Assembly: GCF_019649055.1 (NCBI RefSeq)
Contig: NW_026570269.1
Span: 979,521 to 1,043,520 of the forward strand
DNA length: 64,000 nucleotides
From: Paramacrobiotus metropolitanus
Taxonomy: Eukaryota; Tardigrada; Eutardigrada; Parachela; Macrobiotidae
Direction: 5' to 3'
Shown here: positions 8,592 through 64,000 of the stretch, piece after piece
Layout: the number at the start of each line of letters is the position of its first letter
How positions within the stretch are numbered: position 1 is the first letter of the stretch
Position numbers and translations under genes: made by a program
Notes under the pieces: generated by a model
The model's input: only the letters and a program-made list of their open reading frames with translations
The model's database searches: none
What the model was told of the DNA's origin: nothing

Positions 8592-8816
8592 TAACTACAT
8601 GTACATACACCTCTGGGCAGTAGCAGTACTAGTACTAACGTACACTTAACAGTCTGTACAATATATATTGTATTTAATTTACAATTATATATACAACACA
8701 ATAATGTTGCATGCAAGCGAAAGACGATTAATTATTATCGACCTGAGCACAGCGAAGGTCCTCTAATAATTAAATTCATTGTAAATTGTAAACTAATTAC
8801 AAAAAATTGTACGTAC

Positions 8817-8908
8817 GTACGCCAAGCAATGTTTCAAAAAATGTATTAAAGGAATAGAAATATATTTCTACTCCTTTAATACATTTTTTGAAACATTGCT
8901 TGGCGTAC
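8817..8908. repeat. 92-base near-perfect hairpin
   Basis: The 46 bases from 8817 are the reverse complement of the following 46, with about one mismatch near the centre (GGAATAG versus CTACTCC) and effectively no loop. The stem begins GTACGCCAAGCAATG. It could be a recent palindromic insertion, or a transcript-forming hairpin RNA. There is no protein evidence here. Confidence 0.8.
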
Positions 8909-36476: not shown

Positions 36477-37232
36477 GAAAAATGACTTCTTTAATAAAAC
36501 AATGCATATGTTGTAGTCAGCGCATTAATTAAAGTCAAGCGTCTCGCTGATCCTTCCACTGCAGGTAAAGATACTTCATACGATGGCAACAGCGGTGTAA
36601 ATATAAATAAACAGTAATAGAACGTAATCTATCTCCGATATATATGTAGCCAATTTCTTACAACAGCCAACTGTCACAATTACTTAATAAGTACGTGTCG
36701 AAAACTGTCAATAAGAACATTGGCAAACTTTAACTGACGAAAAAAACACCCCAATTGTTGAACGATATTTGCCTCCTGACATTTCTGACACTTATGACAA
36801 TGCCTTTTTTATGCTGTTCACCTGCCTGGCCGGTACGTGACTATGCGGCATACAATGGAAAAATATGTAGATCCAATAATCCAGTGTTTTCTTGAATGCG
36901 CTTCTATTAAATCCAATTATAAGGTTAGATCAATTCGAAGGCGTAGAGCAGAGATAGCCTTCGATGTGCCTGGAAACATCAAGTACACCGCCACGACTTC
37001 CAGCCGGATGTTTGCTATGTTTTTACGCATATCACATTGTTGTTGTTTGCATTTGCACTTTGCAGTCTTACACAGCGGGAAAAAAATTGCAAGGTGATTT
37101 TCTGCAGAGGTATGGCAATTTGGCTCAAGTATCCTCTTGATAACGTTCATCCTGTACGACGTTATCGTTACAATTAGCCTTTCACTTTCATGCATCAGTT
37201 TCAGATATACTGCACAAACTACGTATACCGAG
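36477..37232. other. Intergenic, nothing recognised
   Basis: Promoter side of transporter C; no supported ORF. Confidence 0.4.
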
Positions 37233-37553
37233 TCATCTAGGTAGGTTTGCGGCATTGTCAAGATTACGATAAGTGAATTTTTCGCAATGGATATTAAGTC
37301 CACAAATCCATATCTTTTGTGAAATACAGCGCTTTATCGACCAGAACTGCCTAAAGCCATCTTCCCAAAAAATTTCAACTTTTTTTCGATCAGCTTTTGT
37401 TTGTAACCTTGTCCTTTTATAGGTACCATATTTTGTGCTAACATTAATACAATGTATGTAAGTGCCATTCCAATACATCTCGATCTGAGAACAAAGCGTA
37501 CAGAGCATCTGAGCCATTAACACGCCCTGTTTTGCCACTTCGAACTCGGCCAT
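37233..37553 (-). CDS. Hypothetical 106-residue ORF
   Basis: ATG-started, Cys- and aromatic-rich ORF (seven cysteines). No signal peptide, no recognised family and no splice partner. It may be chance; kept because of its length and ordinary amino acid composition. Confidence 0.22.
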   Translation of the reverse strand: MAEFEVAKQGVLMAQMLCTLCSQIEMYWNGTYIHCINVSTKYGTYKRTRLQTKADRKKVEIFWEDGFRQFWSIKRCISQKIWICGLNIHCEKFTYRNLDNAANLPR

Positions 37554-37768
37554 AATTGCAAAGCGTCACACTTGCAGGAGAGTGATTGTGACCTTTACAG
37601 TAACGTGCAAAGTGCGGACACATTTTAAATATTATGTAGTATGCGACTACGTACTGTACGTACACAGGCAGTTCACAACTTCACGCCAATCAGTCCAATG
37701 GAAAATAAAATAATAGAAGCAACTGGTAATTTTTTTGCAATTTGCCTTAGGGTGCGGCAATGTAGTAC

Positions 37769-38181
37769 ATGTTGTTTATACGCATTTTAACACAATTATT
37801 GGTTGTCTCTGCTCGTGCAGACTTCAAAGGTACAGCATGTACTGAACCCAGGATTGCGCAAGCTATATTTTTAGCTTTACGGTGGAATTTTCTGATATCT
37901 TACGAACGCTTCAAAACGTGGCTTGTGCTTTCAAAAGTTAATTACCTATAATCACAGCAGAAATTAGCTTGATATTTCCGAACGAAAGTTCTGAAATACC
38001 ACAACATAAAGAACGACACTCTCCCAAATTACACTACAGTCTGTACAAAGCCTGGAGGATTTTGATTTCTGGTCGAAGTCTGCTAAACTTACGGCGTGCA
38101 GTTATGTTTCCGATACTAACCATTGCGCTTTTCTTAGCGTTTGCAGTGATGGTTTGTTCCATTGGAAGAGCGTTTTCATGA
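37769..38181 (+). CDS. Possible small single-pass membrane protein, two exons
   Basis: Exon 1 37769-37829 encodes a leader-like MLFIRILTQLLVVSARAD. Exon 2 37958-38181 joins in phase and ends in TGA, giving 94 residues with a glycosylation sequon (NES) and a C-terminal hydrophobic helix (MFPILTIALFLAF). The donor GTACAG is weak. An overlapping alternative 3' exon pair (38138-38216 plus 38298-38315, reading VCSDGLFHWKSVFMITEEYEVW then DHNLP) has good splice sites in another frame. Unknown family. Confidence 0.28.
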
Positions 38182-38788
38182 TAACGGAAGAATACGAAGT
38201 GTGGGATGGCCTGACGGTAAGAAGTTTGGTTGCTAATAAAATGCTAATAAAATGAATTTCAACCGGCAAATCAAACAAATCTTTTACGCGCTCGCAGGAT
38301 CACAATCTTCCGTAAAATGTGCATTTGGATAACGCGATTATGGGAATATTATTATTGCATTTAAATATTCCGAGGCTAATAAGGATGTGCTTGCAATCCC
38401 ACACCACGAAATTCTTCCATTGTTCCAGCCTTCTGTCAAAGCCTTTTTACCATACCAGTCTGGCAAATCTGGACTCTGAACGATGTCGCCGACTCACCGC
38501 TTTGTACTACACTCCAACAAGACCTATTTTTCGTTTTTCTTGCTAAATCGGAAAAAACCACAATTAAGCATTGTGTTTCGTAAAGCACCAGTTTTTTATG
38601 AGATCGACACTTCACGAGTTTGTAATTAAAACGTTTCCCATAAAGAGAAGAAATGACTAGCCAGAAATTTTCGATATCTTCGTTAACCGCACACACCGGA
38701 AAAGAAACTATAAATAGAAAACTTAAAGTGGACAAGATAATGACATAGACGTGTCTGTCACATCTTGTAACAAAATTAAAAAACTCAA
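38182..38788. other. 3' flank of zinc-finger gene, no gene seen
   Basis: Apart from the alternative exons mentioned for the 37769 gene, nothing supported. Confidence 0.35.
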
Positions 38789-40854
38789 TTAACCCTCTGA
38801 GAACTTGGATTTTTCGGGATGTTTAGCTTGATTGTGCTTAAGCAGACCGATTTTGAACATATATCCCATACGGCATTCGGAGCATCCATACGGAAACTCT
38901 TCAAACTTCATGCGGTTTTGCGGTGGGACATATTTAGAGAGGAGGCCCAGACGCTTCTTTTCCTCCTTAACTTTAGCCAGCTTCTGCTTATAATCTCCAT
39001 GGACAGTGCGGATATGGTTGCGCAAAGATCCCGTACCCGACAACAGCCTGCCACACTGATCACACGGCAGTCGCTCCGCCAGAGAAGTGGCAGTGTACGG
39101 CCCTTTCACTCTTATCGAAACTTTAGCTCTGCGGGGCTTAACACCATTCACGCATGTCCTCACATGAACCTCCAGTCTCTGGGCATTGCGACACAAACGA
39201 CCACACAAAAGACATTTCCGGGATGGATCGTTATTGTGCCAGTTGGCGCAGTGCCGGCCGACCTGACGGTACGTTGGGAATGACTCTTCACAGACAGTGC
39301 ACGGATACAAACCATTGACTGCGTGCTGCTTGGTGTGCGACGTAAACCCTTTATCCATGAAAACATTGCAGTAACAGCATCGTTTATGGGCAGCCGACGC
39401 ATGGAGCTTCAAGTGGGAACTACTTAAGAACTTCTCTCCGCATGCATCACACTCATGATGCCAGTCTTCCTGGATGAACTTCAGCTCCTCGGCATGAGAT
39501 TTTTCCATGTGGGTTTTCATTTTCCCCCGGCCTAATTTATCGGCATACTGTCCGCATATCAGACAGGCAACTTCGGCTTTTCTTTGCAAGACATGGGTCG
39601 ACACATGTTCCACTAAGTCTGCGAAGTTCTTTCCCGAGAATTCACATCCCGGACATGCCAGATCCATCTGCTTAGCTTCGTCTTCGAGCAACCCATCGTG
39701 CTTATAAAAATGCAATTCCAATAATGACTGGCTAGGAAACGTTTTCTTGCAAGTTGAACAAAAATATTTGGAAAATCCCGTAGTTTTGATATAATCAATA
39801 GCTGCCGCCCGATCGGATTCGGTAGGAACGAAGGCAAATGTCGGATGCATCTGTACAATAGAAATTTTAAAACCAAAAACAAACGCTGATGCACCATTCA
39901 GTGTTAATGTACCATTGACAAAACATTCAATAATCAATACCCAACGTCTAAAAATAAAACAATAAAAATAAAAACTGTAAAAATAAATAATTAATACCGT
40001 TTATGCTGTATCCACAGAACCATAAGGCCAGAAACACTAAATCGTCTAAATGTAATTTGTAAGTAAAAAAGTAAAGACAAAAACACGTAAGTACATCTCA
40101 CCTGACTGATATGATTTCTTAATCCTTCATCGCCACGGAAAATAGCATTACACTGGCTGCAAACGTGATTCATGGTTTCTTTTGAATATTCTTGATGTTG
40201 CGTTATAAGATGCTTAGTCAATCCAACAGTGGATATCCCACAAACAGGACAGCTTTTTCGCCGTCGGGGATCAGTTTTCTCCTGTCCTTTTGGTAAGCCT
40301 TCTTTTGGCTTTCCTGGTGCATCTGATGTTGCATTGTGTTGATCAGCGCCAGCGGTTACCAAACCAGCAGCAATAACCCCAAATGCAACAGTTTGACTTG
40401 CAGTGGGTTCAGTGATATCTAATAGTGCGTCTGCTTGAGTGGCAGGGGATTCGTTGGTGAACAGTGCAGTCCAAACATCCTTCGCGTCCTGCTCCGAAGA
40501 TGGCAAACCATTATCCGGAACGTCCACGGATTTCACTCGACGCTTTCGCCCTCTTTTCTCCCTCGTACCTCTCTTTTTTCCACTCTTCGATTGTTGTGAC
40601 AAATCCCAGTGTGCATTATTTCTAGATGCACAAGCAGAGAAATGAGATCTATCCGTTTTCCCTTTCTTCTGAGTTCTCTTGCTGCCAGCATCCACAATAT
40701 CTCCCAGATCCCATAAAACGTTCTTTGGTATAATTGGCTGGGAAAGTAAAGATAACAAAATGGACTGCCCACTGGTTACCTCGAAGTCGTCGCTGGACGT
40801 CGGGTGGTTTTGCTGGAGTTTGGATAAGCGCTGACTTCGTCGGACGCCCAACAT
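38789..40854 (-). CDS. C2H2 zinc-finger protein, eleven fingers
   Basis: Exons 40854-40102 and 39850-38789 join in phase to 604 residues. The N-terminal half is polar with basic clusters (KKRGTREKRGRKRRVK, a likely nuclear signal). C2H2 fingers follow: two encoded by exon 1, the second completed only across the intron (CSQCNAIFRGDEGLRNHISQ then MH), and nine by exon 2, such as CSTCKKTFPSQSLLELHFYKH and CDQCGRLLSGTGSLRNHIRTVH. One finger is CCHC (ends HVRTC). Linkers are irregular rather than TGEKP. Probably a nuclear DNA-binding regulator; the target is unknown. The split finger proves the two ORFs are one gene although exon 2 begins with ATG. Confidence 0.87.
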
Positions 40855-41061
40855 GACTGACTACCAGGCAATCAACAAGAAGATGCTGGCCGTTAGGCAG
40901 TATACCACGTTAAGCCCCAATCTTCATTATGGTTGCAAAGATACATTAAAAAATTCATGGAGACAGTTTGAAAAGTTCGCAGTATGTAGAGGAACAAACC
41001 ACTTTTACAAATACCGCAGTCATAATTTTTTAAGTACGTACCCCCCTGAGGCTGACTACTC
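40855..41061. promoter_or_regulatory. 5' flank of the zinc-finger gene
   Basis: About 200 bp between the start codon and the hAT-type element. A plus-strand ORF begins on the same CATG but has no support. Confidence 0.3.
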
Positions 41062-41069
41062 GTAGCTAC

Positions 41070-42184
41070 CAGACCTGGGCAGTTATGAGATTTCGACTCA
41101 TAGTTAGAGTTAAGAGTTAATCGCAGCTCGCGAGTTACGCTACGAGTTAAGTTAGCTGCTAACTAGAGTTAACCTTCTTCATGAATCATCTTCAACATAT
41201 ACCGATAGATTTGAGACTTATCTGACATAAATTCTCCCTCATGTTTGACCCTGGCTTTTAAGAAAGGAATGACCGAGCGCCGGCAACGCTGAACTTTTTA
41301 CTAAGATTTCGCTTCACATGGCTACCGAAGTTAGTGTAGCTGTTTGACAGCGTTGACCGCATTATTACGCTTCCCTAATGGGCAGGTAGCGAACAATTAC
41401 AGGTAGCAGGTAGCGCACAGACGATCAGTTCCCGTGTGATTTTGGTGCGGAACATGATTTGTCCTCTCGTTGACAAAATTTTGCTCCGCAAAAAATTACG
41501 TTCTCTGCACGCTGTTAATTGAGCTCAAATTGAACGATCACACTCACTGTCAGCATGGACTCTCCGATGCATATTCATCGACCGAAGCGTAGCGAAGGTA
41601 GATTAATACATACTTTCGTTGATTTGTGTCCGTTACGAAAGGTCGTTACGAAAGGTTGTCACGTAAGCCATTTCCAACGAGTAACTGGAAGTCTATGCTT
41701 ATGTTCCTAAGTCGTTTTGCAAAATAATATAAAATTTCATTATTCAACATATAAAAATAGTATTAAAATACTTAAACAGTTTGTAATATAAAATGTAGTA
41801 TACTGTACTCAAAGGAAATGCTGCGCTCCGGTCTGTCAAATGCACGCCAACGTGCATTTTTCCTAGTCTAGTCAAAGCCTTGGGCGGTCGTAGTGTACGT
41901 CTGCTCGAGAAATTTTGTACAGATACTTTTGTAATTATGGCAATTTATGCGATCCACGGTTAACATAACATTTTTTCTGATATTTTCTATTTTTTAATTT
42001 CATTTTTGCTTTCAACTGAAACCTCCAGAGTTACGTTAAACTCGAGTTGCGCTATATTATTTTTGAGTTGCGCTAGAGTTAAGTTTTCATCCTGGCGAGT
42101 TAAGCTTCAAAGTTAAGTTATAACTCGTTAACTCGAAAAAAACTCGCGTTAAGTTAAATAGTTAAAATTAACTGCCCAGGTCTG
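41070..42184. mobile_element. Non-autonomous hAT-type transposon with 8-bp target duplication
   Basis: Inverted ends CAGACCTGGGCAGTTA (41070) and TAACTGCCCAGGTCTG (ending 42184) are bounded by GTAGCTAC at 41062-41069 and again at 42185-42192, an exact 8-bp duplication, the hAT hallmark. Subterminal regions contain many short repeats of (A)GAGTTAA / TTAACTCG. The 1115-bp interior has no transposase ORF. Confidence 0.85.
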
Positions 42185-42192
42185 GTAGCTAC

Positions 42193-43061
42193 TGCCTTAT
42201 CACCGGACCAAAAAATTGAGTACGAGTACTTAAACACCGCCGACCGTGGTCAGCGTGGTGGTTGCAACTGCCACACGGTGTTTAAGGACAAAACGCATTG
42301 CTTAAAGTACCGGACTACCGGTACTTGCTTCATTAAGTGAGGAATTGTAAGGACTAAGGACGTAGCGAAAAAAAATGGTCTAGCAGCCTGCATATTGCAG
42401 CAGGTTGGTTCTGCAGTGAATCTGGATTCACCAGCTAGTATTCCTGCGCCTCTGACACGGAACGAATTTGGCCGGTAAATACCATTGATTCCAGTCTCCA
42501 AATTGTCAGGTTACGTACTTACTTGGTTCGATATCGAGCAGCGGAAGATTGCATTACAGTACATAAGTGTGCCACGCTATTTTTCCATATTTTCATAACT
42601 TTTCATTAACGTGACTCTAGCTCGACCGAATTTGTATATGTGCCGGCGCATCGAAAATAAAACAACTGACCACCAAGAATACCACCAGCAAAAATGCATA
42701 TCTATACGTAAACATCTCTAGGCATATGTACGAGTACTGTACATCGTTGCGTTTCGATTAGAAACTTGTCTAAACAAGAATTAACCACCAATCGTACACA
42801 GCAACAAGTAGCGTGTTCACAGAATATACAAAACCCTGTGCAAATTCGCTTAAAGTTCGTAGCGAAGATTTAAAGTTCCAACTCGAAGAGAAAAATCGAA
42901 ATAACTACCATAGGTGGAAGGCGCGTTCACCTAGAGTAAATATCTATGGTAAAAATTATGATGTGTCAATTAAATTATCGTGGGCGGTAAAGCACGAGCG
43001 CCGTGTAGCGTTGGGCATCCTGGTTGCTGTTGTTTGTGTATGTAACTCCAGGATTAACCGG
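42193..43061. other. Intergenic, nothing recognised
   Basis: 3' flank of transporter D; a plus-strand ORF at 42813 is not supported. Confidence 0.4.
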
Positions 43062-45066
43062 TCAAACAGACTGTGCAATAGTACTGTCATTGCTGCTAGG
43101 CGCTAAAGATCCCTTGTTCCCGAAAAAATTGTCCTCGAGTTTTTTCTGTATTTCCAGAAACGATTCCCCTTTCGTTTCGGTCAGTGTAACCGAAAGGAAA
43201 AGTGCCAGCACTAGCGTAATGCCGCTGAAAATCGCGAAGGTCCACTCCATCAAATACACCTGCATAATAGGAAAGACCGCCGTGACAATTGTTGACAAGG
43301 CCAGGCTGACGACCAGCACCAAGGCGGATGCGGATTGTCGCGATGTCAGTCCGAACATCTCAGCCGGCAGCAGATAGGGCACACTGGCCGGTCCAATAAC
43401 GAAGAAAACCATGAAGAACATCAACGCTGCTAGATTTCCATAACGGCACTCAGTGCAGATGTTGGATGCAGATAATGCCGCAAAGATGACCATAGCAACT
43501 GTACAAAGGGCACAACCGAATAGACCGGTTAACAGAACCGGTCGCCGCCCGACTTTATCCAACAATAGTGAACCAAGGATGGCCACCAGAACTTGAAGTC
43601 CCGCCAATGCTACTGATCCATACGACGAGATCTCTTTGGCTAAACCACACGTGCGAAAGATTTCTGTTGAATAGACATAAATTGCGGGATACCCAGTAAG
43701 CCGTTGGGCAGTGATAGCCAGTAAACACACCGCAATATTCCTGCGCAGAAATGGATCGCGAAACAGACCAAGAATCGATACGCGCTTCTGCGATAGTTTT
43801 TTTGCGTGTTGCACTTCGTTTTCGATAATGGCGACTTCAGTGTCCACGTTGTCCGTATGACGCAGACGCTTTAAGAGTTGCTGTCAATTCTGCAGTGCCG
43901 CGTACATTTCGGCCCAGCCAACGCGGACTTTCCGGTAACAGCACGTACAACAAGAAAAATATGATATTGGGTGACAGAAGTATCCAAGTCATGTGCTTCC
44001 AGTAATTGTCATTTCCCAGGAACGCCGGCAGCCCGAGCACGTCGGCCACTAACATCCCGCAACTGAGTGAAGAGGCGATGAGGACGCTCAGCACACCGCG
44101 ATATTTTATTGGGCTGATCTCGGCAGCGTACACCACACAGGCTGAACTTCCGAAACCGGCTCCCACTCCGAAAATTAAACGTCCTACAAAATGTATTGAT
44201 CAACAAACTAGGAAAATATTCTGCTGCAAAAATTTGATTTAAGCAGGTAATAATTTAGCTCTGCTGTTGCTGTTTGAGTTGCACAGAACTATAATGGATA
44301 AAATGCTTCTCCAACCTCCAGTTCGGCTAGACACATTTTTCCCCCTATATATAAAGTGTTTTGTACGATATAATTCGTATAATTCGTTTGCGCATAACTC
44401 GTATAATTCGTATATAACTCGTATAATTCGTTTGCGCACTTACAACGAGTAGTTACTGTAAGTTCTGTAACTGTTAATCACTAGCAGAAACATGAGAAGA
44501 TGTACGAGCAATGAAAAAATATCTATCTGTAAGCATACGATTATACCTATAATGAACATTTCATATGACGGGGCAAATACAATACATGCAGCGGCAGCAC
44601 TTCCAATAACTCCAACTACGTTGCTGATCAAAAAGGTTTTGCGAAATCCGAACCGTTCGACCAAGTTGTTCGTCAATAGTGCTCCAACGGACACTCCTAG
44701 CATCACCGAAGATCCTGTCAGACCCCAAATAGCACTCAGACTACTATTATGACGCAGATGCAAAGATAGTTCATTGTCTGGGACAAAAGAGCACCATAAC
44801 AAGTTTTCGGGATGTGTTAAGTTAGAGGTTAACACCCAGCTTTGTTGCCCAGAAGCAACGGTTGATGTTGAAGTACGCAAACACTGAATCTGTCGAATCC
44901 ATCGTATGATCAGATTCTGCGGGACGTTAATTTGCGCAAAACTGTAGCCAGCATTGAACCATGTGGTCAATGCCGCAATCAGTGTCGAGAGAAAGGTCGT
45001 TGCAGTTAAGGAATTATGTGATTTCAGACAAGAACTGGCGCTGGTGGTGACCTTTAGTGCAGACAT
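43062..45066 (-). pseudogene. GLUT-like transporter family member D, frameshifted
   Basis: Exon 1 45066-44547 (ATG at MSALKVTT; the frame upstream looks 5' UTR-like) and exon 2 44183-43062, with the family intron position kept (YEMFIIG|RLIFGVGAGFG). Landmarks: FNAGYSFAQINVPQ, PESPRW, QRLTGYPAIYVYS, DKVGRRPVLLTG, ETKGESFLEIQ. Between about 43875 and 43890 the frame changes: the first part ends AELTA..., while family-like LLKRLRHTDNVDTEV continues in the next frame. The total length is one base too long for an open frame, so a single inserted base explains it. Everything else is intact, so this is either a very young pseudogene or an assembly error in an active gene. Confidence 0.8.
44357..44440. 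repeat. Short tandem repeat, TATAATTCGT units
   Basis: Several copies of CGTATAATTCGT and two of TATAATTCGTTTGCGCA in about 80 bp inside the intron of transporter D. Confidence 0.6.
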
Positions 45067-45696
45067 CCTGACTGCAGTTTTTAAAGTTCCCCGTGTTATA
45101 CTTTTACAAAACTGGTACACAAACAAACACAAATATGTATACAAACACTCCTGCTTTAATTAGTATAGCTACGTATATAGGCACCATTTTAAAAATACAA
45201 ATACCGCTGTATAATTGTCCATTGTCCCAGTGGACAATAGTTGTAATGATTATTATCCTGTGTACTAGGAATCTGCTACAGGCGGCTCTAGTGGTAATAT
45301 TCACTAGTTATGTAATCCGTGGTAAGACTACCGCATGCAGAAAAGTAAATTACCGTGTCATGGTGCATGACAGTATGTATGTTGTGCTTATGGCTGGATC
45401 AGATTTGCCACTATAATAAGTTCGTCATGTCACCGGCAAAACCGGCAACGATTACGCACCACCCTTCGGATTCAACATATACTTGCTTATAATTGTAGAC
45501 GAAGGTGACTCTGAGTAGGTAACTATAGTAGTAGCATATTAGTGTCGTCATCAGCTTTGTTTTGTTTGGCAAACACTTTCTTGGTCAGATCATACGCGCA
45601 AATGTGCAGGAACTGCATTTTTCTACGTAGAGTTTGTAATTATAGGTATGTACAGCTACTTGAAAATTAGTAGTACTACGCAGTACGCACCTGTAG
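45067..45696. other. Intergenic, nothing recognised
   Basis: 5' side of transporter D; only a small inverted repeat at about 45205-45230 (ATTGTCCA...TGGACAAT). Confidence 0.4.
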
Positions 45697-54605: not shown

Positions 54606-56330
54606 GCGATCAACTGTATTAGGTCAAAGATATAGATGCACAATCCGTGACAATCGCGACTGTCCAAAGTTCCAAACGAATTTAAACAAAGTACGGATAG
54701 GAAATTTAAAACCTAAACAATAAACATCATTACTTTAATATTTTACATTTTTACAGTTTTACTCGTATGATTGATAAATTCTTTACAACATATGTACCGC
54801 GAAAGCTGACCGCCCTCGGGCATCGGCACTCTACAATATGACCGGGGTTTAATACCATTTCCGGGTGGGGCTCGCCTCCGCAGTGACGTCATGTACATAC
54901 ATTTCGGCGACATCGATATGCCGCCGAAATATTGTAGATTTTATACATTGTAGTTTGTAGATTTAAATAGCCAAAACAACTACATACCTTTTACATTTCA
55001 AGTTGTAATAAACCATGTTAGGCTTTGACATTTTGTTGAGCGGACTGACTGCCGGACTGCTTTAATATGGAATATCTCCGAAACTAAAGGACTAATCGAG
55101 TACTAGTAGTAGTACGAGTGTACAAGCAATAAGCATTACTAAAAATAAGTCTTTACTTGCATTTTGCAGGCCTGTTCGTGAAAGATCACAAAATGCCGGA
55201 CGTCATCACGCGGTTTCATGAGAAAGCGGTAAACCTCTATCCTTGGATGCCACCTGCGTAGACACACTCGCGGGCTCATAATTCTGTTTACCGCACCCGT
55301 GTCAAGTTTCAACACTGAAGCCGTCTAGAGCAAGTCCAAGGGAAAGACAGACAAAATACAGCTGGCTCTGTGGTCTTAAAGATGGCATTTCGTCCCGGCG
55401 ACGTTTAAATTTTGCGGCGGAGATTGGGTAGACGGTATCAGAAATCTAGATCTGGTGCTTTACTACCCCCACCCGGTTATGCTAGGTCCATACTTCAGTT
55501 GTAATTCGGAATACAATAGAAATCTTACAACAATCGTAGAAAAAGTATGCACGACAGTCAGCTTTGTTGTAGCATTTTTTGTTGTAATTCTCGAAAGTAT
55601 GGACGCGACAGTTCCAGGAAAAATGTTGTATTTCGGAAAATTTGTTGTAGATTGATGTGGTAGGAGGGAGGGGCTTTTCTTCCTTTCTACAACAATCGTA
55701 GTCTAATGGTAGATCCAGAATGGATCCACAGACGGAGACAGAAACGGAATCTATCCCGTGGAGTGAGCGACACGATCTGGGTCGCGAGCTATGCGGAAAC
55801 ACAAAACGTCGCACCGTAATCGCTGACTTTTAATAATATTGAAAATTCCGACAACAGAAAATCAACACTGATCGGCGCAGCTCGATCGTAAAGCGTGGAG
55901 CCCATTCAACAGCGTGCAACGCTGTGCAGCACGTGCTATGCCGCGCCCACTAACAAAACACAAGCCAATCAGAAGAGAGACACACACAGGCCATAATCCA
56001 AAGGCGTAGCGCCTAGCGCCACTGACGTGAACGCTAGTGATCCCGGTCTCACATGCCTCTGGGGGGATGCCGAGCTCCTGTGAGGCTGGACACACTCCCG
56101 AATCCACGAGAAGACGACGGTCGCCGGTGTCTGTGTGTGCTCAAAAACATCAAATTCTCTTAATCCATTTTTATCACATCAATTACATAAAGGCACAATT
56201 TCATTTTAATACGATGTGAATAAAGAGATCCAATTATAAAAATACTATCAAATCATTAGAACAGATCAACAGTAACAGATCAACAAAAGTATTAATCAAA
56301 TTGTAGACTAGGATCCTCCATTTCTGACTC
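54606..56330. other. Intergenic, one possible short exon
   Basis: After a TTTTGCAG acceptor, 55170-55261 reads LFVKDHKMPDVITRFHEKAV and on to TAG; this may be the last exon of a tiny gene whose first exon was not found (a candidate ATG lies near 55016). From 54830 on, the base composition becomes more GC-rich. Nothing else recognised. Confidence 0.3.
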
Positions 56331-56857
56331 GTAAAGGTCACAGGTCCTGTCCACCGTTCTCCGCACTTTGGCCCATTCCGCTCCGTTGAGCAATCCTGCG
56401 CATCCGTAATGCGACTTCATCACAATCCGCTTGAGAATCAGGTGCGTATCAAGTACGACTTAAGAATACTGCTTCATCTTTGGAATATGGTGCGTATCAA
56501 TTGTACGACTTCAAAATGAGATCCATAAAGGTCATGGAGGGACGTCAATGAAGACAAGCGTAGTTCGCTTCCTCCCTAGTAAAGGTCATCCTTTGTTGAG
56601 ATGATCCGTTGAGATGTGCGACTCATTTTGGGTTAATGGTCCCAAAGGTCATGCGACTTAACTTCCAATACGGTGACTCTGTTGGGCAATTGATGATCCC
56701 AAAGGTCACCCCACTCGTCAAAATTTCCGTTAAAGGTCATGGAGGGACTTAGCCAATTTCCTGCGGCTTTCAAGCACTTCTTCGCTTGCCTCCCTGGTAA
56801 AACTTGCAGTTTGACCTTTCCGTCGCACATCCAACTTCAGTATGCCTCGAGCGGCCA

Positions 56858-57330
56858 GAGTGCCGGCAAGTTTACCGTAGCATCTCTGATGGGGCCGGCT
56901 AGTTACCGCATTGAATTTACCCCATGAAATTTCCACATTTAATCTTTTACTCTTGTTCGCCGCTTGTGGCTTACGTTATTACGAGAAATCCGGCTCGATT
57001 ACCGTAGTTTTTCTCGTTTCACCTTTAACACTGAATCGCTTAAGAAGAGTGCCGGCGCAGTTTACCGTAACAACTCTAATGAGGCCGGCTGATTGCCGCA
57101 TTAAGTTAACCTCATCAATATTCCACCTGTTGTCTTTCTCTTTTTCGCCGCTTGTGGCCCCGTTTCGTATTCAAGAGATCCGGCTTGATTACCGTTGTTT
57201 CTCTTGTGCATTTATAACACTGAGTCGCTTAGAGAGGAGAGCCGGCTAACTGCCGTAACTACTCCCTTGGGGCCGGCTTTATAGACCGAATCAATTTCAA
57301 CCCCAATAGATACTCCACATGATTTCTTTT
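56858..57330. repeat. Two and a half tandem repeats of about 189 bp
   Basis: Units begin GAGTGCCGGC at 56858 and 57047 and GAGAGCCGGC at 57237. Shared blocks in order: GCCGGC..TTACCGTA, GGCCGGCT..CCGCATT, TTCGCCGCTTGTGGC, ATCCGGCT.GATTACCGT, AACACTGA.TCGCTTA. They lie just beyond the 3' end of the 913-codon ORF. The third unit is partial. Divergence between units is moderate, so they are not recent. Confidence 0.8.
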
Positions 57331-57485
57331 AGGCAATTCTGTGCTATAAACGCTGCAAACAACAAATACACAAATACAGTTTATGTTAACATGTCACGTC
57401 CTTTATACAACACCATTTGCATCTTTGTGACGTACCGACAAATGCCGTAGACGTCCTTTTAATAGTGTGATCCTAAAGGTCAACA

Positions 57486-60227
57486 CTATTCCATTTCATT
57501 TGAATCGCCCTCATCATTTCTCGGCGGGCGTTTCTTAGCGCTTTCCGGTTGGTTTCGGTCGGAAGTTCGGTCAACTGGTTCCGTCGAGTCAACTTCCATG
57601 ACCTTTGTCGGGTCAACTTCGCGCTGGCCACGACCTTTACCTTGGCGGCTGCGCCTAACCGCCTCAAGTCGATGGCGTGCGTCATTCTCTTCGAGTCGCA
57701 GTCTGCGGTTATCAGGGTCTTCCGCCAATCGACGCTGCACGTCGGCGAGATTATCCCGCAGCTGTTGGTTTCGGATGCCGCGTCGTCCCATCTGGTTAGG
57801 CGCACGGTCTGGACGACGGTCACTTTTCTTCACTAAGAAATCATCAATGTAAGTTTCGATTCCGTCCACCGGCTCGACGTAGTCGCTTCCCAGGGAATCT
57901 TTAATCTTATTAATCCTTTCTTCTACTTGGGATGCGTGGCGCTGTGTCAAGTTGCCCTTTTCCATTCGTGTCTTGCACTTTTTCAGCGCCTTGCGAGCCG
58001 TATGCGCTATGCTGATATGTTCCATCGGTTGTCCCAATTTAGCGACATGAGCTCGGAAGAACGGTGGAATGTCGTCCTTCATGGTATTAGACACCAATTG
58101 GTTTTGTGTCTTGTAATGTGCCAGTCTCGCAGCAAAGACCTTTTGCCCCATCCTTTTTGCGGCATAGTCCTTAGGATCCACCTGTAGTCCTATCGACGCC
58201 CTTGCTGCAAGCAACTTGAAAGCTGGGTTCACATGTCGTAGAACAAACTGAGCCACGTATTCTTGGCGTTCGGGATAGTCTCTATAATAGAACTGTGTCA
58301 TCCCGATTGGATCAGTTGTGTCCAGCGGTACATCCAATAAACTCAAATCCACCAAACTATGTAGTCCATTCCGTCGAATAGGGAGATAACAGTCCCGTAC
58401 TGAGTCGCGGTGGATGAATAACTGACGGAAAAGTCCTTGTTCCACTCCTTGTTTAATCTCTCTCGCATAACCCGAGTCGAGTAGGAATTGGCTCAACTGT
58501 CTCAGAATTGTGCCAATTTTGTTGGCTTCAACCGAATCCGGCTCAAGTCCAAAGTATCGACAAATTTCGACCGTTTGTTCATCAATATCAGTCGTATTAT
58601 ATTCCATGTCGATGGTATCCGGTTGTCGGTTATCAAATCTGGAGTTCTGTCGCTGATCAGCCCGGCGATGATTATCCGGTTCTCGTTGACCTTCTGGTTC
58701 CCGTCGCTCTCCTGACTCAGGCTGCGACGGTTCGTTACTCGCCGGTTGTTCCGGTTGAAGGTCACTATCCAGAATTACATTTCGTCGATGGGTCACGTTC
58801 TCTTGAGACGTTTCCGCAATCGAGCTAGTCCCTTCCATCGCATCGTCTTCTTGTACGACGCTCACAATTGGATCCACTACATGAACCACTGACTCCACCC
58901 GCTGATACTTTGGGGGTGAATCTTCCCGTTCAGTGCTTGATGACCTTTTATTTGCGCCCGAGTCAAAGGTCGCGTAGAATGCAGCCCTCTGTTGCCATCT
59001 TTTATCGCGTGGGTCGGGCGTTCGATTTCGCGTATGTTCGCGTCTTCTATCCCATGACCTTTCGGGTGTTGACATCCTAACGTTACGATTACGGAAAGCA
59101 ACTTCCGTCGGCACCTGATGTCCTTCCTTTTCAGGTTCTGTACGGAATGTCTCCGCGCGCCGTTTGTCTTCACGTTCTCTGGTCGCTGCCAATAACTTCG
59201 TTGTGTCGATCTTCCTCTGAATGCTCATCTCTGTTACTTCATCGCCGTGGCGTACCCATCCTCTTCCGCCACGGTAATCCCTGTCGCGGGACCGTTCGCG
59301 TGACCTTTCACTGTGGTAGTCACGTGTCCTTTCACGAGAGTGTTCACGTGACCTTTCGCTCCGTCTTTCAGAAATCCGTTCATGTTCACGTGAATGTCCG
59401 CGTGACCTTTCTCTATGCGGAGGGGATCGTGGCCGTATGAAGCCTTCATCCCGTTTGAAGCTTCTGAGTGCTTGCAGCACATCGCTTTCAGTTCGGCGAG
59501 ATTTACGTAGATTATCCATACGTCTTTCGACTTCCTTCTTTATGTATGGCGCCGGCGCGAACCCGTCTTGCAATCGTTTCTTCTCCCGCAACAGCATTTT
59601 GAATATCTCGTCTGACATAGCAGCCGGATCTTTCGTTAAGGTTTCAATCTGAATGATAAGCGACTGTCGTACGAGTTGCATTTCGTCTTCGTTAAGGCTG
59701 GCCATGCCCGGGGGTGCAGCTAGACCCGACGTACTGGGCAACGCCTCCCGTGCGGCCTGTTCGCTTGCCTTCTTATTTTGCGCATTAATTTTCGCGCGGA
59801 GTTCGTCTTCCATTTGCTGAGCTCGCATCTTTTCCTGGTCCTCTGCGAATTTCTTCCGATACGCGTCCGTATGTGGACACTTCAACGGCTCCAAGGTGTC
59901 ATCCCAACCAGGTTCGTTGTTCCGGATCGCTTCCTGGTAGCGATCCTCGAGTAGCATTCGCTCTTCCACTGGGATGCTGCCGTAATTCCTTGCGCTTATC
60001 AGATTGCGGAAGACATCCAGGTTCCCGCGTTTGGCTTCCGAGACTCCAACAAGTGAGACGATATGTGGGTCATCCAGCTTGTGAATGCATGCGTAGCACG
60101 GAAATCTCTTGTCAACCTTTTTGTTATTGCGTAGACAGTCCGGACACTTTGGATTGTAGCCCGTAAACCGATCGATGTCTGCCGCCGTTCCCGTACGTTT
60201 AGGAGTGGCTTGACCTTTCTGTGCCAT
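57486..60227 (-). CDS. Large intronless ORF, unknown charged protein
   Basis: 913 codons from ATG at 60227 to TAG, with no intron. Not recognised. Residues 28-47 hold a CxxC-x12-CxxC zinc-binding-like site. Residues about 120-170 are a charged helix. About 265-330 is an Arg/Ser/Glu repeat (RSREHSRER, SERSRERSRD) resembling SR proteins but without an RNA-recognition motif. About 430-555 is polar and disordered (Pro, Glu, Arg, Gln). About 560-800 is a mostly helical folded domain (EICRYFGLEPDSVEANKIG; QFYYRDYPERQEYVAQFVL; HISIAHTARKALKKC). The C-terminus is very basic (RRSRQGKGRGQRE). It contains seven AAAGGTCA octamers in all frames. It could be a structural protein of an integrated mobile or viral element, but no polymerase, protease or integrase is visible in the window. 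Confidence 0.75.
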   Translation of the reverse strand: MAQKGQATPKRTGTAADIDRFTGYNPKCPDCLRNNKKVDKRFPCYACIHKLDDPHIVSLVGVSEAKRGNLDVFRNLISARNYGSIPVEERMLLEDRYQEAIRNNEPGWDDTLEPLKCPHTDAYRKKFAEDQEKMRAQQMEDELRAKINAQNKKASEQAAREALPSTSGLAAPPGMASLNEDEMQLVRQSLIIQIETLTKDPAAMSDEIFKMLLREKKRLQDGFAPAPYIKKEVERRMDNLRKSRRTESDVLQALRSFKRDEGFIRPRSPPHRERSRGHSREHERISERRSERSREHSRERTRDYHSERSRERSRDRDYRGGRGWVRHGDEVTEMSIQRKIDTTKLLAATREREDKRRAETFRTEPEKEGHQVPTEVAFRNRNVRMSTPERSWDRRREHTRNRTPDPRDKRWQQRAAFYATFDSGANKRSSSTEREDSPPKYQRVESVVHVVDPIVSVVQEDDAMEGTSSIAETSQENVTHRRNVILDSDLQPEQPASNEPSQPESGERREPEGQREPDNHRRADQRQNSRFDNRQPDTIDMEYNTTDIDEQTVEICRYFGLEPDSVEANKIGTILRQLSQFLLDSGYAREIKQGVEQGLFRQLFIHRDSVRDCYLPIRRNGLHSLVDLSLLDVPLDTTDPIGMTQFYYRDYPERQEYVAQFVLRHVNPAFKLLAARASIGLQVDPKDYAAKRMGQKVFAARLAHYKTQNQLVSNTMKDDIPPFFRAHVAKLGQPMEHISIAHTARKALKKCKTRMEKGNLTQRHASQVEERINKIKDSLGSDYVEPVDGIETYIDDFLVKKSDRRPDRAPNQMGRRGIRNQQLRDNLADVQRRLAEDPDNRRLRLEENDARHRLEAVRRSRQGKGRGQREVDPTKVMEVDSTEPVDRTSDRNQPESAKKRPPRNDEGDSNEME

Positions 60228-60576
60228 TTTTCCGCTTCAGTCTGTAATTATAAAACAATCCGTCATATTAACTTTTCCACGTTAATCCTTCCATTTCCTA
60301 TCCATATCAAGGCTTTTCTATCATTTTTACGCCTATTCCGTTTCTGAGCTGAGACTTTCCTAGCTCCTGCTGCCTTTTCTATCACTGTAACGTGGTGACC
60401 TTTCTCACGTTATCAGCACTTTCTGACTACTGTGACCTTTTCTATTAGTCCTAGTACTGTTTTCAGTTGACCTTTCGTAACACTTTTCGCTTTCGTTTTA
60501 AACTGTTTTATGCTTTTTCTGTAATATGCAGGGTTCATTACTCGCTGCATATTACACTATATTTTCGGATTCTGTT
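60228..60576 (-). promoter_or_regulatory. Inter-ORF spacer with three AAAGGTCA copies
   Basis: 349 bases between the histone-like ORF and the 913-codon ORF. Minus-strand AAAGGTCA at 60396, 60433 and 60468 are 37 and 35 bases apart, the tightest spacing in the region, and sit about 170-240 bases upstream of the large ORF. The sequence between them is T-rich on the plus strand. Whether this is a promoter or a leader is unknown. Confidence 0.4.
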
Positions 60577-61086
60577 TTATGATGGTTTATACGGCTTGAA
60601 ATCGATTCGGCCATCTGGCTTAATATGAAGCACTTCGTCCGCGATCAAGGCTTCGACGGCGTTCCTAATCCACTCTTTATCGCTTTCAATATTCAAATCT
60701 CCCAATTCGTAATTGACGGCCATGAAGTTTGAAAGGTCATTCCATGACGCTCCATTGGTACCGCCAATGGCGTCCAGAGCTACATCTGTGATGGCTATCT
60801 TCCAGGCCTCCAGTTCCATTTTCAGTCTGGGCGTTCGTTCCGTGCCCTGTTTCGGAAGGTAGTAGACGACTTTGTTGTCCTTGTTATATTTACATCCCAA
60901 CTTTCCTTCCTTATAAGCTCGTTTCAAGACTCGTTCAGTCATGTTAAGTGACGACCTTCCGTTCGTATTTATCGCCACTTGTCTTTTCAGGTCTGTCCCA
61001 AGCATTTCCTTTTCCCGAATAATCTGGAGTGCAGCTTGGACTTCGTTCCATGTACGATTATTCACGTCCAATGCCGGCCCTAACAT
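60577..61086 (-). CDS. Linker-histone-like winged-helix protein
   Basis: 169 codons, intronless. The C-terminal 80 residues (AWKIAITDVALDAIGG, ASWNDLSNFMAVNY, EWIRNAVEALIADEVLHI, DGRIDFKPYKPS) have the helix-helix-helix-wing pattern of the H1/H5 globular domain by inspection. The N-terminal half (NRTWNEVQAALQIIREKEM, ERVLKRAYKEGKLGCKY, KVVYYLP) may be a second winged helix. It probably binds nucleic acid. The ATG at 61086 overlaps the TAG of the preceding ORF (ATGTTAG), an arrangement seen where two ORFs are coupled on one transcript. Belongs with the AAAGGTCA-rich block; contains one plus-strand copy. Confidence 0.6.
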   Translation of the reverse strand: MLGPALDVNNRTWNEVQAALQIIREKEMLGTDLKRQVAINTNGRSSLNMTERVLKRAYKEGKLGCKYNKDNKVVYYLPKQGTERTPRLKMELEAWKIAITDVALDAIGGTNGASWNDLSNFMAVNYELGDLNIESDKEWIRNAVEALIADEVLHIKPDGRIDFKPYKPS

Positions 61087-61610
61087 GTAATCTGTAGCCT
61101 CCTTTGCCGGTGTACCGCTACTTTCTGGGAGGATGTCGAGTCCGTTGGGTCAGCCGTCGCTGTCTCGTCGATCCTCAGCTTTGCCAGTGATCCTGATGAT
61201 GACCCCGCCGATTTTGGTTCGCTGTCTTCTTTCCTCTTGTGGCAAAGTCTCTTGACCTTTAGATCGCCGACCGACTTCGATCGTTCCTTCTCAAAGACGT
61301 CCTTTAATGGTATGAACAGTGATTTGTGAAACACCTGGCGCGCCGAATCCGCTTCAGCTTCTGCCGCTGCCTTATCCATCGGGAGCATGACCTTTTCTTT
61401 CTCCCGTTTGTCTGAAGCTTCATGACCTTTCGGTTGAACTTCTGCGGTAGTTTCAGATGTCTCTTGACCTTTCGGTTGTTCGCCTTTTTCTGTCGCAGGT
61501 CCAGAAGGAGCCGTTATAGTAGCGTCATCGTCGCCTTCCGATTCCGAATCCATTGGGCCTTTTGTCTTCGATGAAACTGTGACCTTTTCCATGTCCTGAC
61601 TGTCGGACAT
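61080..61610 (-). CDS. Hypothetical charged disordered protein
   Basis: 176 codons from the first ATG (61610, MSDSQDMEK) to TAG at 61080. Rich in Ser, Glu, Lys and Asp, with repeats of (Q)PKGQE / QPKGHEA that correspond to the AAAGGTCA octamer read in frame; EKVT, EKVM and LKVK are the same octamer in another frame. The open frame continues upstream to 61775 without an ATG (RIAKLIKQNVLTTNAHKGHP), so the real start may be further up after a frameshift from the ORF at 61709-61915. No family recognised. Confidence 0.5.
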   Translation of the reverse strand: MSDSQDMEKVTVSSKTKGPMDSESEGDDDATITAPSGPATEKGEQPKGQETSETTAEVQPKGHEASDKREKEKVMLPMDKAAAEAEADSARQVFHKSLFIPLKDVFEKERSKSVGDLKVKRLCHKRKEDSEPKSAGSSSGSLAKLRIDETATADPTDSTSSQKVAVHRQRRLQITC

Positions 61611-64000
61611 ATTACAGTGGATCTGTCTTTCCGGTGGTATTAGACCGACTCTCGTATATCGGATCGGGTGTCCTTTATGTGCATTTGTCGTAAGGACGTT
61701 CTGTTTAATCAACTTTGCAATACGCGCTCGGTTGCCGTGTCGATCTCCTTTATCATTCCATTTCCGTCGTTCCAAACTGCGTTGATATATTGGCTAATCC
61801 GGTGACTCGTTGACCCTAATGGGCTTGTCATTCCTGCGATTGCCCTTTCTACTCGCATTGGGACCGCTTCATTCGGGGTTGTCAGCGCCTTATCCGAACT
61901 GGCTGGTCTGAACAACTTAGCCTCATACGAGAAACTCGCGTTTCTGTATAAGTTTTCCTGCGTTCCGCGCGAATTCCAATACGACGTCGAACTTTTGTTT
62001 AGTGAAGCTACGATGTTGTTTCTTCAAATACGTCTTCAGGCCTGATTTAAATTTGATGTCACCGATGCTGTTCCTATTCGTATGAAATTTTCCGCCCGTT
62101 ATACGCTTTGATTATTTCATCGACCGTGTTCAAATTATCATCATCTGACCATCAAATTCTTCGTCTGAGGTGAAGTCCAATTCACTCTCTCCATCTGGTT
62201 CGGCGTATTGATCATTGCCATTGCATCAACTTTCATGGTTGTTTTGACTCTTCTTCGGTCTTAACGGGCTTCGTTTCTTTGCTTTTTGTCTTTATCCTGC
62301 CTCCAAGCTTCTTGGCTCAGTAGTCCTTGATCGTTGTTTTCGAATCTGTATGTGACCTTGCACTGACCGTCGAAGTGCTTGAAGGCTCACTTCCGATGCC
62401 TGATTCACGCGACGTCTCCTGTTTCGCTTTTTCGCGAATCTGTTTGTCCTTGCGCCTTTGGCGGATGCGGAAATGACATGGGGACAGCTTGTTTCACCGC
62501 TATGACCTTTCCTTTGAGTTTTACGGTTCTGCTGTAGCTGATTGAATAACTTTCTTGACTTCGTAGGTGTCGATGACCTTTCTTCAACTTCGCCAACTGA
62601 CTCGTCCATCTGACATCATGCGACGCTGGTTCATCTTTTCTTCCTGGTGCTTGTGCTATCGCTTTCGTCACCGCTCTTCTTATCTTCTTCCTCCTGTTTT
62701 CTTCTTATCTTCTTCCTCCTGTCGTTTCTTGAGGAAATCGCCTTCTTAACCTTGTCACGGTTCATGGCCTCTTCCAATCTGGGCGCTTTCTCGGTTTGAC
62801 TTTTGAGGGCTTGACCTTTAAGGGCTTTTTATGCTTATCGGCCGTTTCTTCTGTCTGAGCCTTCTTCCTCAGGTGGGTCCTCGTCTTCCGACTCTGGTCT
62901 GTCGTCACCAGGTGGATTACATAATGGGCACAGTTTGTCTATCACACTGAAGGTGCTCATGACTTCCCTGGGCAATCTCTAACACTCTTTGTAGAGAGCG
63001 TCTGGCCCTCGTTTCAGTTACATTTGCCGACGTGCCTTGCGCTCTTCCGTCTCTCCGGCTCCGCCTTCTTGTGCCGGGGGCTGGATTTCCAAATGTAGTG
63101 TCTCTGTCAGCTGTCCCTGTGAGGCGACCTCCCACAAAGGGTTCTTCTTAGCGTCGTAAAATACCGTTTTGTACGATCCGTCTTCCATCTGTCTTGTGAG
63201 TCGGAATGTGCTCCATCGATTTCCGCTCGATGCCGCATCATGCTGATCAGTGTACTCGCTTGAACCACGGCATCTGTCCGGTCACTTTCGTATCAGATCC
63301 CATAACTGCTCAACGGCTGCCTGATTCGCATTTCGGGCGCTCTTCTGATACGTCCCATGGAGCATATGGAACCGGGTCTCCTGTTATTGGATCGACTATC
63401 ACTGCAGTTATGGTTTGCACAGCTTCCATTACCACCGAAAAGTCTGAGGGTGACCTTTCTGCTTGTCGCCTCTGTATCTCAGACCGACTCATAATCATCT
63501 GACGATCGTTTCTTCGGATCTGGATCCGCCGTCGGTTTTGAGCGAGTTCTCTCTTTGATCAACAGTTTGCCGTCCGTTGTGTATGTATATGCCACGTGGT
63601 CATCATCTGTGCCCACTTTGGATACGGATCCATGCGTCTTCTTCGGTTGCAACTTTAGATACCACGTGCTTCATCATCTGAACGATAACTTTGGGTTATG
63701 ACGTTCTTCTGGGGAATAAACTGTAGCGCCTCATTGACTATCGTTTTTGACTCTTTTCCAATGGCATCCTTGACTGACCTATCTCGCGAGGGGATTATAC
63801 GAGTCGATCTCTTTGTTCGTTTTCTTATCGACTATTCGTGCGGTGACCTTTTCGTTCTATATCTTCGCCAGTGTACTTGGCCGTAGCTTCTACACTTGAA
63901 ATCGAATTGACCTTCTGTTCCAGCTGGTGTGGTGGCGCGCTCTTTCACCCACTGACTGGCCTTGTGGCTTTGCCGGCTCAGCTGGTGTTGCTTTACCTGA
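61611..64000 (-). pseudogene. Broken charged ORFs continuing past the window edge
   Basis: On the minus strand several overlapping ORFs in different frames (61915-61709, 62671-62405, 62609-62292, 63135-62917, 63498-63310) share one composition (Lys, Arg, Ser, Glu) and carry TGACCTTT copies at 62503, 62574, 62812, 63451 and 63844. They look like one or more longer frames broken by small indels. There is no family match. The block is cut by the end of the window, so its 5' boundary is unseen. Confidence 0.4.

Follow-up and report, generated by a model that had tools for sequence, protein, structure and literature searches.

Why should one exact eight-base word, AAAGGTCA, occur 29 times between positions 56,333 and 63,851 of the 64,000-nucleotide stretch of the Paramacrobiotus metropolitanus genome analysed here (the window), both inside open reading frames and outside them? 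Our octamer count bears out the dense array reported in a preliminary description, together with its contrast in density to the remainder of the window, although the "about a dozen" copies given there for the other 56 kb are in fact 16; the whole window holds 45 copies, against a mean of 2.94 and a maximum of 7 in 100 dinucleotide shuffles. The strand switch described near 57.5 kb is likewise real and falls at the end of ORF3 (57,486): from this position upward 20 copies lie on the minus strand and one on the plus strand (60,732), and below it seven lie on the plus strand and one on the minus strand (56,812).

A retrotransposon bearing the octamers

Sequence comparison identifies the octamer block as the 3′ portion of a large, Ty3/Gypsy-like LTR retrotransposon of P. 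metropolitanus; 8.3 kb of the element lie in the window, up to the end of the contig. Its parts in the window are as follows:

55702..56053, minus strand: 3′ LTR, without octamer; the end at 55,702 is common to three other copies (homology to L053, L054 and L055 stops there in all three), and the start near 56,053 was placed by eye against the C1 element
56054..57485, minus strand: 3′ non-coding region from ORF3 to the LTR, with seven octamers on the plus strand (antisense) and one sense
56333, 56527, 56581, 56644, 56701, 56732 and 57475, plus strand: antisense octamers of the 3′ non-coding region, the sense copy being at 56812
57486..60227, minus strand: ORF3, 913 aa, with seven sense octamers at 57599, 58941, 59055, 59301, 59349, 59403 and 60211
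60228..60576, minus strand: gap between ORF2 and ORF3, with sense octamers at 60396, 60433 and 60468, present in nine, eight and four of ten copies, respectively
60577..64000, minus strand: 3′ part of ORF2, running into the contig end (64,000) and frame-broken above about 61.8 kb in the window
61253, 61388, 61423, 61465, 61580, 62503, 62574, 62812, 63451 and 63844, minus strand: sense octamers of ORF2, which also holds an antisense one at 60732

The 5′ LTR and the reverse transcriptase (RT) of the window copy lie beyond the contig end. A related element (C1:201,729–220,362; the C1 element), the one copy measured, is 18.6 kb long end to end and is bounded by direct LTRs of 340 bp that are 98% identical. 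Its RT gave an RVT_1 match of 89 bits and best PDB matches to 4ol8 (RT/RNase H, 6.6e-32) and 7q5b (Ty3 Gag-Pol, 5.3e-31); an aspartic protease lies upstream (gag-asp_proteas, 2.4e-10) and an integrase-like part downstream (a weak match at 1.2e-4, with no Pfam match at 0.05), giving the order PR-RT-IN. Comparison of 56 ORF3 matches with 98 RT matches (those scored of 1,505 candidates) linked the block to the RT: at least 18 ORF3 copies have a same-strand RT match 8.4–13.7 kb upstream. Both ORF2 and ORF3 lie downstream of the RT and found relatives only in P. metropolitanus among the 8,000 and 7,999 candidates scored, and none of 37 pattern matches in viral contigs was confirmed as a relative of ORF3. 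In two other copies, the stretches examined contain an uninterrupted ORF2 of 1,298 and 1,309 aa. ORF3 has a zinc-finger-like N-terminus (CxxC-x12-CxxC) and an RS-rich middle, and no Pfam match was found at E 0.01; its structure model has a mean pLDDT of 46.6, with 600 of 913 residues below 50, and all seven of its octamers lie in such residues. The window's positions 56,268–56,801 are 70% identical to the corresponding region of the C1 element.

Octamer density in these two elements is 3.5–5.2 per kb, some 17 times the genome average. Their bodies carry 80 sense and 15 antisense copies, their leader and trailer 3 sense and 16 antisense, with both ends mostly antisense; five of the antisense copies stand immediately upstream of the first long ORF of the C1 element. 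Within the two elements no octamer starts lie closer together than 15 nt, but elsewhere a few pairs lie at 10–11 nt, so that some spacing may be dimer-like.

Excess and constancy of the octamer within the element

Protein sequence could in principle dictate such an array, and the tripeptides ERS, KGH and KVx are indeed over-represented. The octamer nevertheless falls in every codon frame of ORF3, as had been described (KGQ in frame 0, ERS/KRS in frame 1, TKVM in frame 2), and is present in non-coding DNA too, namely the 3′ region and the ORF2–ORF3 gap. Over 13 ORFs we counted 63 sense octamers versus 1.37 expected (46-fold) and 14 antisense octamers versus about 0.06 (about 221-fold; the expected 0.063 is a rough value based on 300 permutations per ORF), so that most element sites are coding and the octamers are not concentrated in regulatory DNA. 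When codons were shuffled synonymously with the protein held fixed, about 8 octamers in all were obtained, versus the 63 observed. This, together with the invariant synonymous positions described below, contradicts an amino-acid or codon explanation. The octamer copies are not those of a single expanded satellite, and the claim that their flanks differ holds for the coding copies, though in the C1 element neighbouring copies at C1:203,490–203,734 lie within a local tandem repeat. Amino-acid repeats, codon bias or satellite expansion as the source of the array are thus scarcely credible.

Both orientations exceed the codon-based expectation, which favours a mark on double-stranded DNA. A strand bias taken as proof of an RNA signal was rejected, since antisense copies are relatively the more enriched given base composition and codons. 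The excess is also sharp: the element has 82 exact sense copies versus 52 one-mismatch neighbours (22.7 expected) and 32 exact antisense copies versus 13 neighbours (4.9 expected). The base adjoining the octamer is C in 51, T in 40, A in 21 and G in 2 cases. Close octamer pairs are direct at 2,652 places (control 56) versus 63 inverted sites (control 23), an excess of same-facing pairs that may arise from tandem duplication and skewed composition.

In ORF3, the octamers of the window are exact in all nine other copies at six sites and in eight of nine at the seventh, and all 62 aligned site-copies of these seven sites are identical (496 of 496 bases versus 79.9% elsewhere); at synonymous third positions 170 of 170 are the same at octamers versus 65.9% elsewhere. 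For 8-base windows of ORF3 overall, 45 of 2,665 are kept in nine of nine copies and 98 of 2,665 in at least eight, and near octamers 23 of 550 are invariant. Octamers at ORF3 columns 1430 (three of ten copies) and 973 (one of ten) vary. For ORF2, the reference copy has nine octamers, of which five persist in every aligned copy, and same-codon counts are higher at octamers than in the rest in each of five copies (e.g. 20/23 vs 495/878); the other four are missing or altered in part of the copies, and one of them in all four aligned. The RT gene has one sense and one antisense octamer, each in the same five of seven copies, and a third in two of seven; of six further copies, four share both octamers with the reference copy, a level of conservation that 46 of 1,277 windows of the reference RT also reach. 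The two copies without either (L059 and L060) differ at the antisense site through synonymous changes only, and hence the RT protein does not need the octamers. All 11 non-coding octamer columns are without the word in at least one copy, the trailer itself being well conserved; over 56,241–57,485, 542 of 567 motif bases in nine other copies are window-like, as are 9,060 of 10,045 other bases. A private-change test, which is weaker, gave 12 of 952 octamer bases versus 535 of 18,965 others, with eight of the twelve in the most distant copy. Judged from these alignments, the octamer is constrained at the nucleotide level in coding DNA, in most copies compared. The earlier proposal of an embedded recognition tag under selection, unexplained by amino acids, thus gains support from the synonymous positions of ORF3 and from a coding excess beyond codon and protein controls.

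The octamer in the rest of the genome

Genome-wide, AAAGGTCA occurs 42,562 times in 169.8 Mb, about 0.25 per kb, versus 19,908 for the words with the other three first bases together; 4,042 of the 42,562 are followed by G. Eight stretches selected blind (L011–L016, L051 and L052) hold 14 octamers in 80 kb, far from the density of the elements: DNA sampled blind from this genome does not resemble the array. The surroundings are not neutral for the octamer either, which corrects the preliminary description: enrichment in other sampled genome DNA is about 4–10 fold. In about 0.2 Mb of host background, partly chosen for octamers, it is the top non-simple 8-mer; its 24 one-mismatch neighbours stand at 1.10 times expectation and words with another first base are raised only about twofold. 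Sampled host long ORFs hold 18 octamers (8 sense, 10 antisense) versus 1.75 for permuted octamers (10.3-fold), and DNA outside long ORFs holds 41 versus 4.72 (8.7-fold), in a comparison of 13 loci besides the window of which L007, L008 and L010 were picked for listed octamers and L003 and L006 are flanks of the C1 block (L003–L010, in a first set of 16 loci, were chosen around the octamer listing). This sample may include ORFs of mobile elements, one ORF being gag-like. The adjoining base in the host is C in 30, T in 16, A in 10 and G in 8 cases, so that a preference for C is common to host and element. Short repeats within a DNA-transposon-like stretch contain the octamer too.

Two accounts of the host copies were tried and rejected. 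Decay of element remnants is, for the sampled loci, at odds with the near-absence of excess neighbours, and blastn there gave no homology to element pieces except to the element's own LTR. A core-promoter or short-leader role is at odds with the spacing to ATG starts, which lie 0–12 nt away for 8,121 of 42,562 octamers, about chance (20%). Within this genome, other lineages of the family's RT carry few or no octamers among the matches listed (the first 100 of 2,652 pair places, with 8/9 RT matches listed on C1). Lineages within one genome thus seem to differ in the presence of the octamer, and this would offer a natural experiment on the effect of a host DNA-binding factor on a mobile element.

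What may read the octamer

Some factor probably reads the octamer as a DNA tag. Our leading proposal, to which we assign a probability of about 0.4, is that the octamers would be sites on double-stranded DNA, gathered along the element, to which a host protein binds; the likeliest candidate would be a monomeric nuclear receptor, either NR4A (HR38/NBRE) or ERR/NR5 in kind. The element would gather and keep about 3.5 to 5 sites per kb, and the host factor would coat its integrated DNA (or cDNA) over the whole length; this coating could keep the long internal region open and transcribed, or aid entry of the cDNA into the nucleus. Sites would be spread along the whole length, we propose, because a few in the LTRs would be insufficient. 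ERR and NR5 receptors bind words with a different first base. DNA-binding domains with putative NR4A-like, ERR-like (two) and NR5-like (FTZ-F1-like) signatures are present in the genome, the presumed NR4A-like exon being at L046. Neither the window nor the C1 element contains any of the 63 genome matches to zf-C4, which removes a nuclear-receptor domain inside the element as a candidate. According to PMC6912296, NR4A proteins bind AAAGGTCA, the NBRE, as monomers or homodimers. Among the tag types listed in the preliminary description, the nuclear-receptor type accordingly matches as an exact word, and the RNA-only types are disfavoured because the octamer is in excess in both orientations.

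Several observations speak against a receptor: no octamer occurs in the two LTRs read, although promoter sites should lie there; sampled host octamers are as enriched within long ORFs as outside them, unlike ordinary regulatory sites; the polarity of the same-facing pairs is more than a simple double-strand mark calls for; first-base variants are raised only about twofold in the host; and not every element site is kept.

The host data also suit a DNA tag spread through the genome, comparable to Chi, uptake sequences or HIP1 and used for host repair, recombination or self-recognition, under which octamer-loaded element cDNA would pass as self or protected. Enrichment in the sample is sharp and indifferent to coding and strand, the word is over-represented genome-wide, it recurs in the DNA-transposon-like repeats and same-facing pairs dominate; yet five of the 13 host loci were octamer-chosen or C1 flanks, some ORFs there may belong to mobile elements, and the element's ends lack opposite orientations, leader and trailer both being mostly antisense. 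We know of no system of this kind in animals, and we regard the explanation as doubtful. Its bolder form, that a desiccation-tolerant animal might read a genome-wide, coding-indifferent tag at break repair or in self/non-self discrimination, much as bacteria do with Chi or uptake sequences, and that the retrotransposon family is loaded to about seventeen times the genomic density so that its linear cDNA would count as self, is rather unlikely. The same indifference to coding and strand could reflect a functionless mutational or repair bias creating or protecting AAAGGTCA everywhere; such a bias leaves unexplained both the roughly 17-fold density in the elements and, among the matches listed, the octamer-poor RT lineages, and is very unlikely.

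Within the element, the mostly sense body copies, the mostly antisense leader and trailer, the good conservation of the trailer and the CxxC pair and RS-rich region of ORF3 would fit a signal at the RNA level, in which Gag, ORF3 or a host protein binds AAAGGUCA of the genomic RNA for packaging, export or splicing control, or AAAGGUCA pairs with UGACCUUU in leader and trailer. Such a signal is unlikely when the coding sense bias is below the level set by composition alone, antisense enrichment exceeds that of sense copies, the antisense RT octamer is kept as widely as its sense partner and host DNA shows an excess in both orientations. The zinc-finger-like N-terminus of ORF3 raises the possibility that this or another element protein binds octamer DNA, host copies being incidental or former element sites. 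We consider this quite unlikely: the octamers sampled in the host do not stem from decayed copies of the element, the element lacks a nuclear-receptor match, and the ORF3 model is of low pLDDT.

Whichever factor is involved, an eight-base word has been kept dozens of times within genes, where amino acids and codons have been adapted to it. If host enrichment proves as strong within ORFs as outside them under full annotation, this would be, to our knowledge, the first animal example of an exact word of this kind across a genome; the lineage concerned is well known for its DNA repair. Literature searches found nothing in print on the octamer array and no paper joining Paramacrobiotus with a retrotransposon, and the genus goes unmentioned in the accessible part of a paper on tardigrade transposons (PMC11071193).

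The element resembles Ty3/Gypsy in its aspartic protease, an RT closest to that of Ty3, a weak integrase match and LTRs, and differs in its very large size and in having ORF2 and ORF3 downstream of the RT. Regulatory arrays of retrotransposons usually consist of a handful of sites within the leader or an LTR; the su(Hw) insulator of Drosophila gypsy is a leader with clustered sites for one host factor. The five antisense octamers before the first long ORF of the C1 element recall that array, but most sites here are coding, extend over the whole length and are absent from the LTRs read. We know of no uptake or repair reader of the octamer. With the response element of NR4A (NGFI-B, Nurr1, HR38) the octamer is identical (AAAGGTCA; PMC6912296), and in the tardigrade genome the first A is nearly obligatory (42,562 versus 19,908). 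Known use of the NBRE, partly from the same source, is at a few promoter or enhancer sites, whereas here many tens lie in mobile-element coding DNA and sampled host copies also lie within coding DNA. As with bacterial DNA uptake sequences, Chi and HIP1, the word sits inside genes where the protein tolerates it and is kept against drift. It is also, like them, short, exact and present in many copies on both strands; unlike them, it belongs to an animal genome and reaches an extreme density in one retroelement family.

The octamer array and the element that carries it

The dense array of AAAGGTCA reported in the preliminary description was reproduced by counting: 45 exact copies are present in the window, compared to 2.94 expected from shuffles, with 29 of these lying within 56,333-63,851, and the change of orientation at 57.5 kb is real. 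As the window ends where contig C49 (1,043,520 bases) ends, the octamer block is cut.

Features of the window
2211-2282, 7359-7854 and 8816-8909: MITE-like inverted repeats, 86-98% alike
28774-45159, both strands: sugar-transporter-like ORFs
56,333-63,851: span of the 29 octamers; the element that carries them runs from the last part of ORF2 through ORF3 and a non-coding trailer into the 3' LTR, whose end is at 55,702
56500-56800 and, on contig C1, 202,480-202,770: trailer segments with an inverted repeat (AGGGAGG...CCCTCC) and TGACCTTT on either side, recognised by eye
56857-57137 and 57046-57329: trailer tandem repeat, 75% identical
57,486-60,227, minus strand: ORF3, encoding P0001 (913 aa)

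The block forms the 3' portion of a large LTR retrotransposon, because a related block on contig C1 (201.7-220.4 kb) exhibits direct LTRs of 340 bp that are 98% identical and encodes an aspartic protease together with a reverse transcriptase (RT), and because at least 18 ORF3 copies have a same-strand RT match 8.4-13.7 kb upstream when the ORF3 and RT match listings are read jointly. The nearest solved structures to the RT of the C1 element are Ty3-type, its integrase match is weak, and one of its ORFs resembles the N-terminus of P0001 in a by-eye comparison. Among 8,000 candidates scored from a collection of 5.77 billion proteins, P0001 has 11 relatives, every one from Paramacrobiotus metropolitanus, whose own genome gives at least 56 match entries. 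The ORF2 part is frame-broken in the window copy, whereas two other copies keep it open throughout the stretches retrieved.

Octamer density in the window and C1 elements is 3.5-5.2 per kb. A total of 25.3 kb of DNA from the two holds 82 sense octamers (relative to the element genes) against 1.2 expected and 32 antisense octamers against 0.2 expected. One-mismatch neighbours are few (sense, 52 vs 22.7 expected; antisense, 13 vs 4.9 expected), and the base that follows the octamer on the motif strand is C in 51 cases, T in 40, A in 21 and G in 2.

Conservation and turnover of the octamers

The earlier idea of a recognition tag kept by selection is supported at the nucleotide level in ORF3, where the window copy was compared with nine further copies of 67-98% amino-acid identity: starting from the window copy's own octamer sites, 496/496 octamer bases are identical vs 19,012/23,804 elsewhere, as are 170/170 synonymous third positions in octamers vs 4,113/6,240 elsewhere. 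Six of the seven octamers in the window ORF3 are kept in all nine other copies and one in eight, whilst among all 2,665 8-base windows of this ORF 45 are kept in nine other copies and 98 in at least eight. Counting octamer columns from any copy gives nine, with six present in 10/10 copies, one in nine, one in three and one in a single copy.

The contrast between octamer and flank is smaller in non-coding parts than in ORF3: 542/567 octamer bases are conserved in the trailer vs 9,060/10,045 other bases, and 165/180 vs 1,653/1,955 on the 5' side, with all 11 non-coding octamer columns lacking the word in at least one copy. Taking element copy L028 as reference, 5/9 ORF2 octamers are intact in every aligned copy, whereas 4/9 are missing or altered in at least some copies, one of these in all four. 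Across seven RT copies, one sense and one antisense octamer each occur in the same five and a third in two; the sense and antisense octamers are kept in 4/6 other copies, and so are 46/1,277 RT windows. The octamers are thus strongly conserved, but on longer time scales they are gained and lost.

The two of these seven RT copies with neither of the widely kept RT octamers (L059 at C46:108,204 and L060 at C35:567,248) represent a separate RT lineage. They are 77-78% identical to the RTs of copies L057 and L058, and the latter share 72% identity with C1; in L059 and L060 the antisense octamer site is changed at synonymous positions only; this lineage provides a natural contrast with its octamer-rich relatives. 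Among the contig C1 RT matches listed, 5/8 have 6-20 listed close octamer pairs no more than 13 kb away, the other 3/8 only 0-1.

Strand, host genome and candidate reader

Thirteen ORFs from three copies hold 63 sense octamers vs 1.37 expected from permuted codons and 14 antisense octamers vs about 0.06; shuffling synonymous codons with the protein fixed gives expectations summing to about 8 sense and 0.5 antisense. Sense frames 0, 1 and 2 hold 8, 31 and 24 octamers, in agreement with the preliminary description that all three codon frames are used. Since both orientations exceed expectation, and the rarer antisense one more strongly, the data point to a double-stranded mark. Counter to this, most octamers of the leader and trailer run antisense (16, compared to 3 in the sense direction), and close pairs across the whole genome nearly all face the same way: direct pairs (2,652; control 56) are about 42 times commoner than inverted ones (63; control 23).

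The octamer is enriched in the host as well, with 42,562 copies in 169.8 Mb compared to 15,522 for its backwards-read pattern and 19,908 for the three first-base variants jointly. It is the strongest 8-mer, TATATATA and ATATATAT aside, in a 198 kb background (69 vs 7.5) that was partly picked from octamer listings and includes a DNA-transposon-like locus, L009, with 10 copies. Six blind-chosen stretches hold 9 octamers in 60 kb, where permuted octamers average 2.4 (9 being reached in 1/200 permutations), and two further stretches hold 5 in 20 kb. With L009 removed from the background, enrichment is equal in long ORFs (18 vs 1.75) and other DNA (41 vs 4.72). Pfam matches of host-like type mark the ORFs around six of the ORF sites: three sites fall in sugar transporters, one in an ORF with a 7tm match below cut-off, and a LIM ORF accounts for two. 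A seventh site is in a gag-like ORF; the other ORFs scanned have no Pfam match.

Within L009 (5240-6280 and 6890-7760; C1:565.2-567.8 kb), the octamer is contained in ~21-bp repeats (AAAGGTGGATGACCTTTGCAG) of DNA-transposon-like character, perhaps a second mobile-element type employing it. Background locus L007 (C1:300,001-310,000), host-like by appearance, has 14 octamers per 10 kb with unrelated flanks, and L008 (6928-7080) has four spaced 37-63 nt in TATATA-rich DNA, with a similar pair at C1:277,452.

The octamer is identical to the NBRE, to which NR4A receptors bind either singly or as homodimers (PMC6912296), and another paper gives 42 C4-type zinc-finger proteins for Paramacrobiotus metropolitanus (PMC12941274). 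The genome has 63 zf-C4 matches, counted exon by exon. By their sequence signatures, exons among these look NR4A-, ERR-, FTZ-F1- and HR39-like. The proposed reader of the octamers is a host sequence-specific DNA-binding factor, with a nuclear receptor of these kinds the likeliest candidate; by keeping many such sites along its length, the element may gain open chromatin or an escort for its DNA. Weak points of reading the octamers as receptor sites are that the two element LTRs examined hold zero octamers and that host octamers occur within coding DNA. Both observations fit at least as well with the octamer being a genome-wide tag of Chi- or uptake-like type, although we consider such a tag improbable compared to a host factor of the nuclear receptor kind.

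Comparison with known arrays

As far as the literature search listings reach, no paper describing such an octamer array was found. Retrotransposons with arrays of host-factor sites are a known kind; here one exact word persists in dozens of places across coding sequence, in every frame, and is enriched host-wide too, which makes the case at least a new variant.
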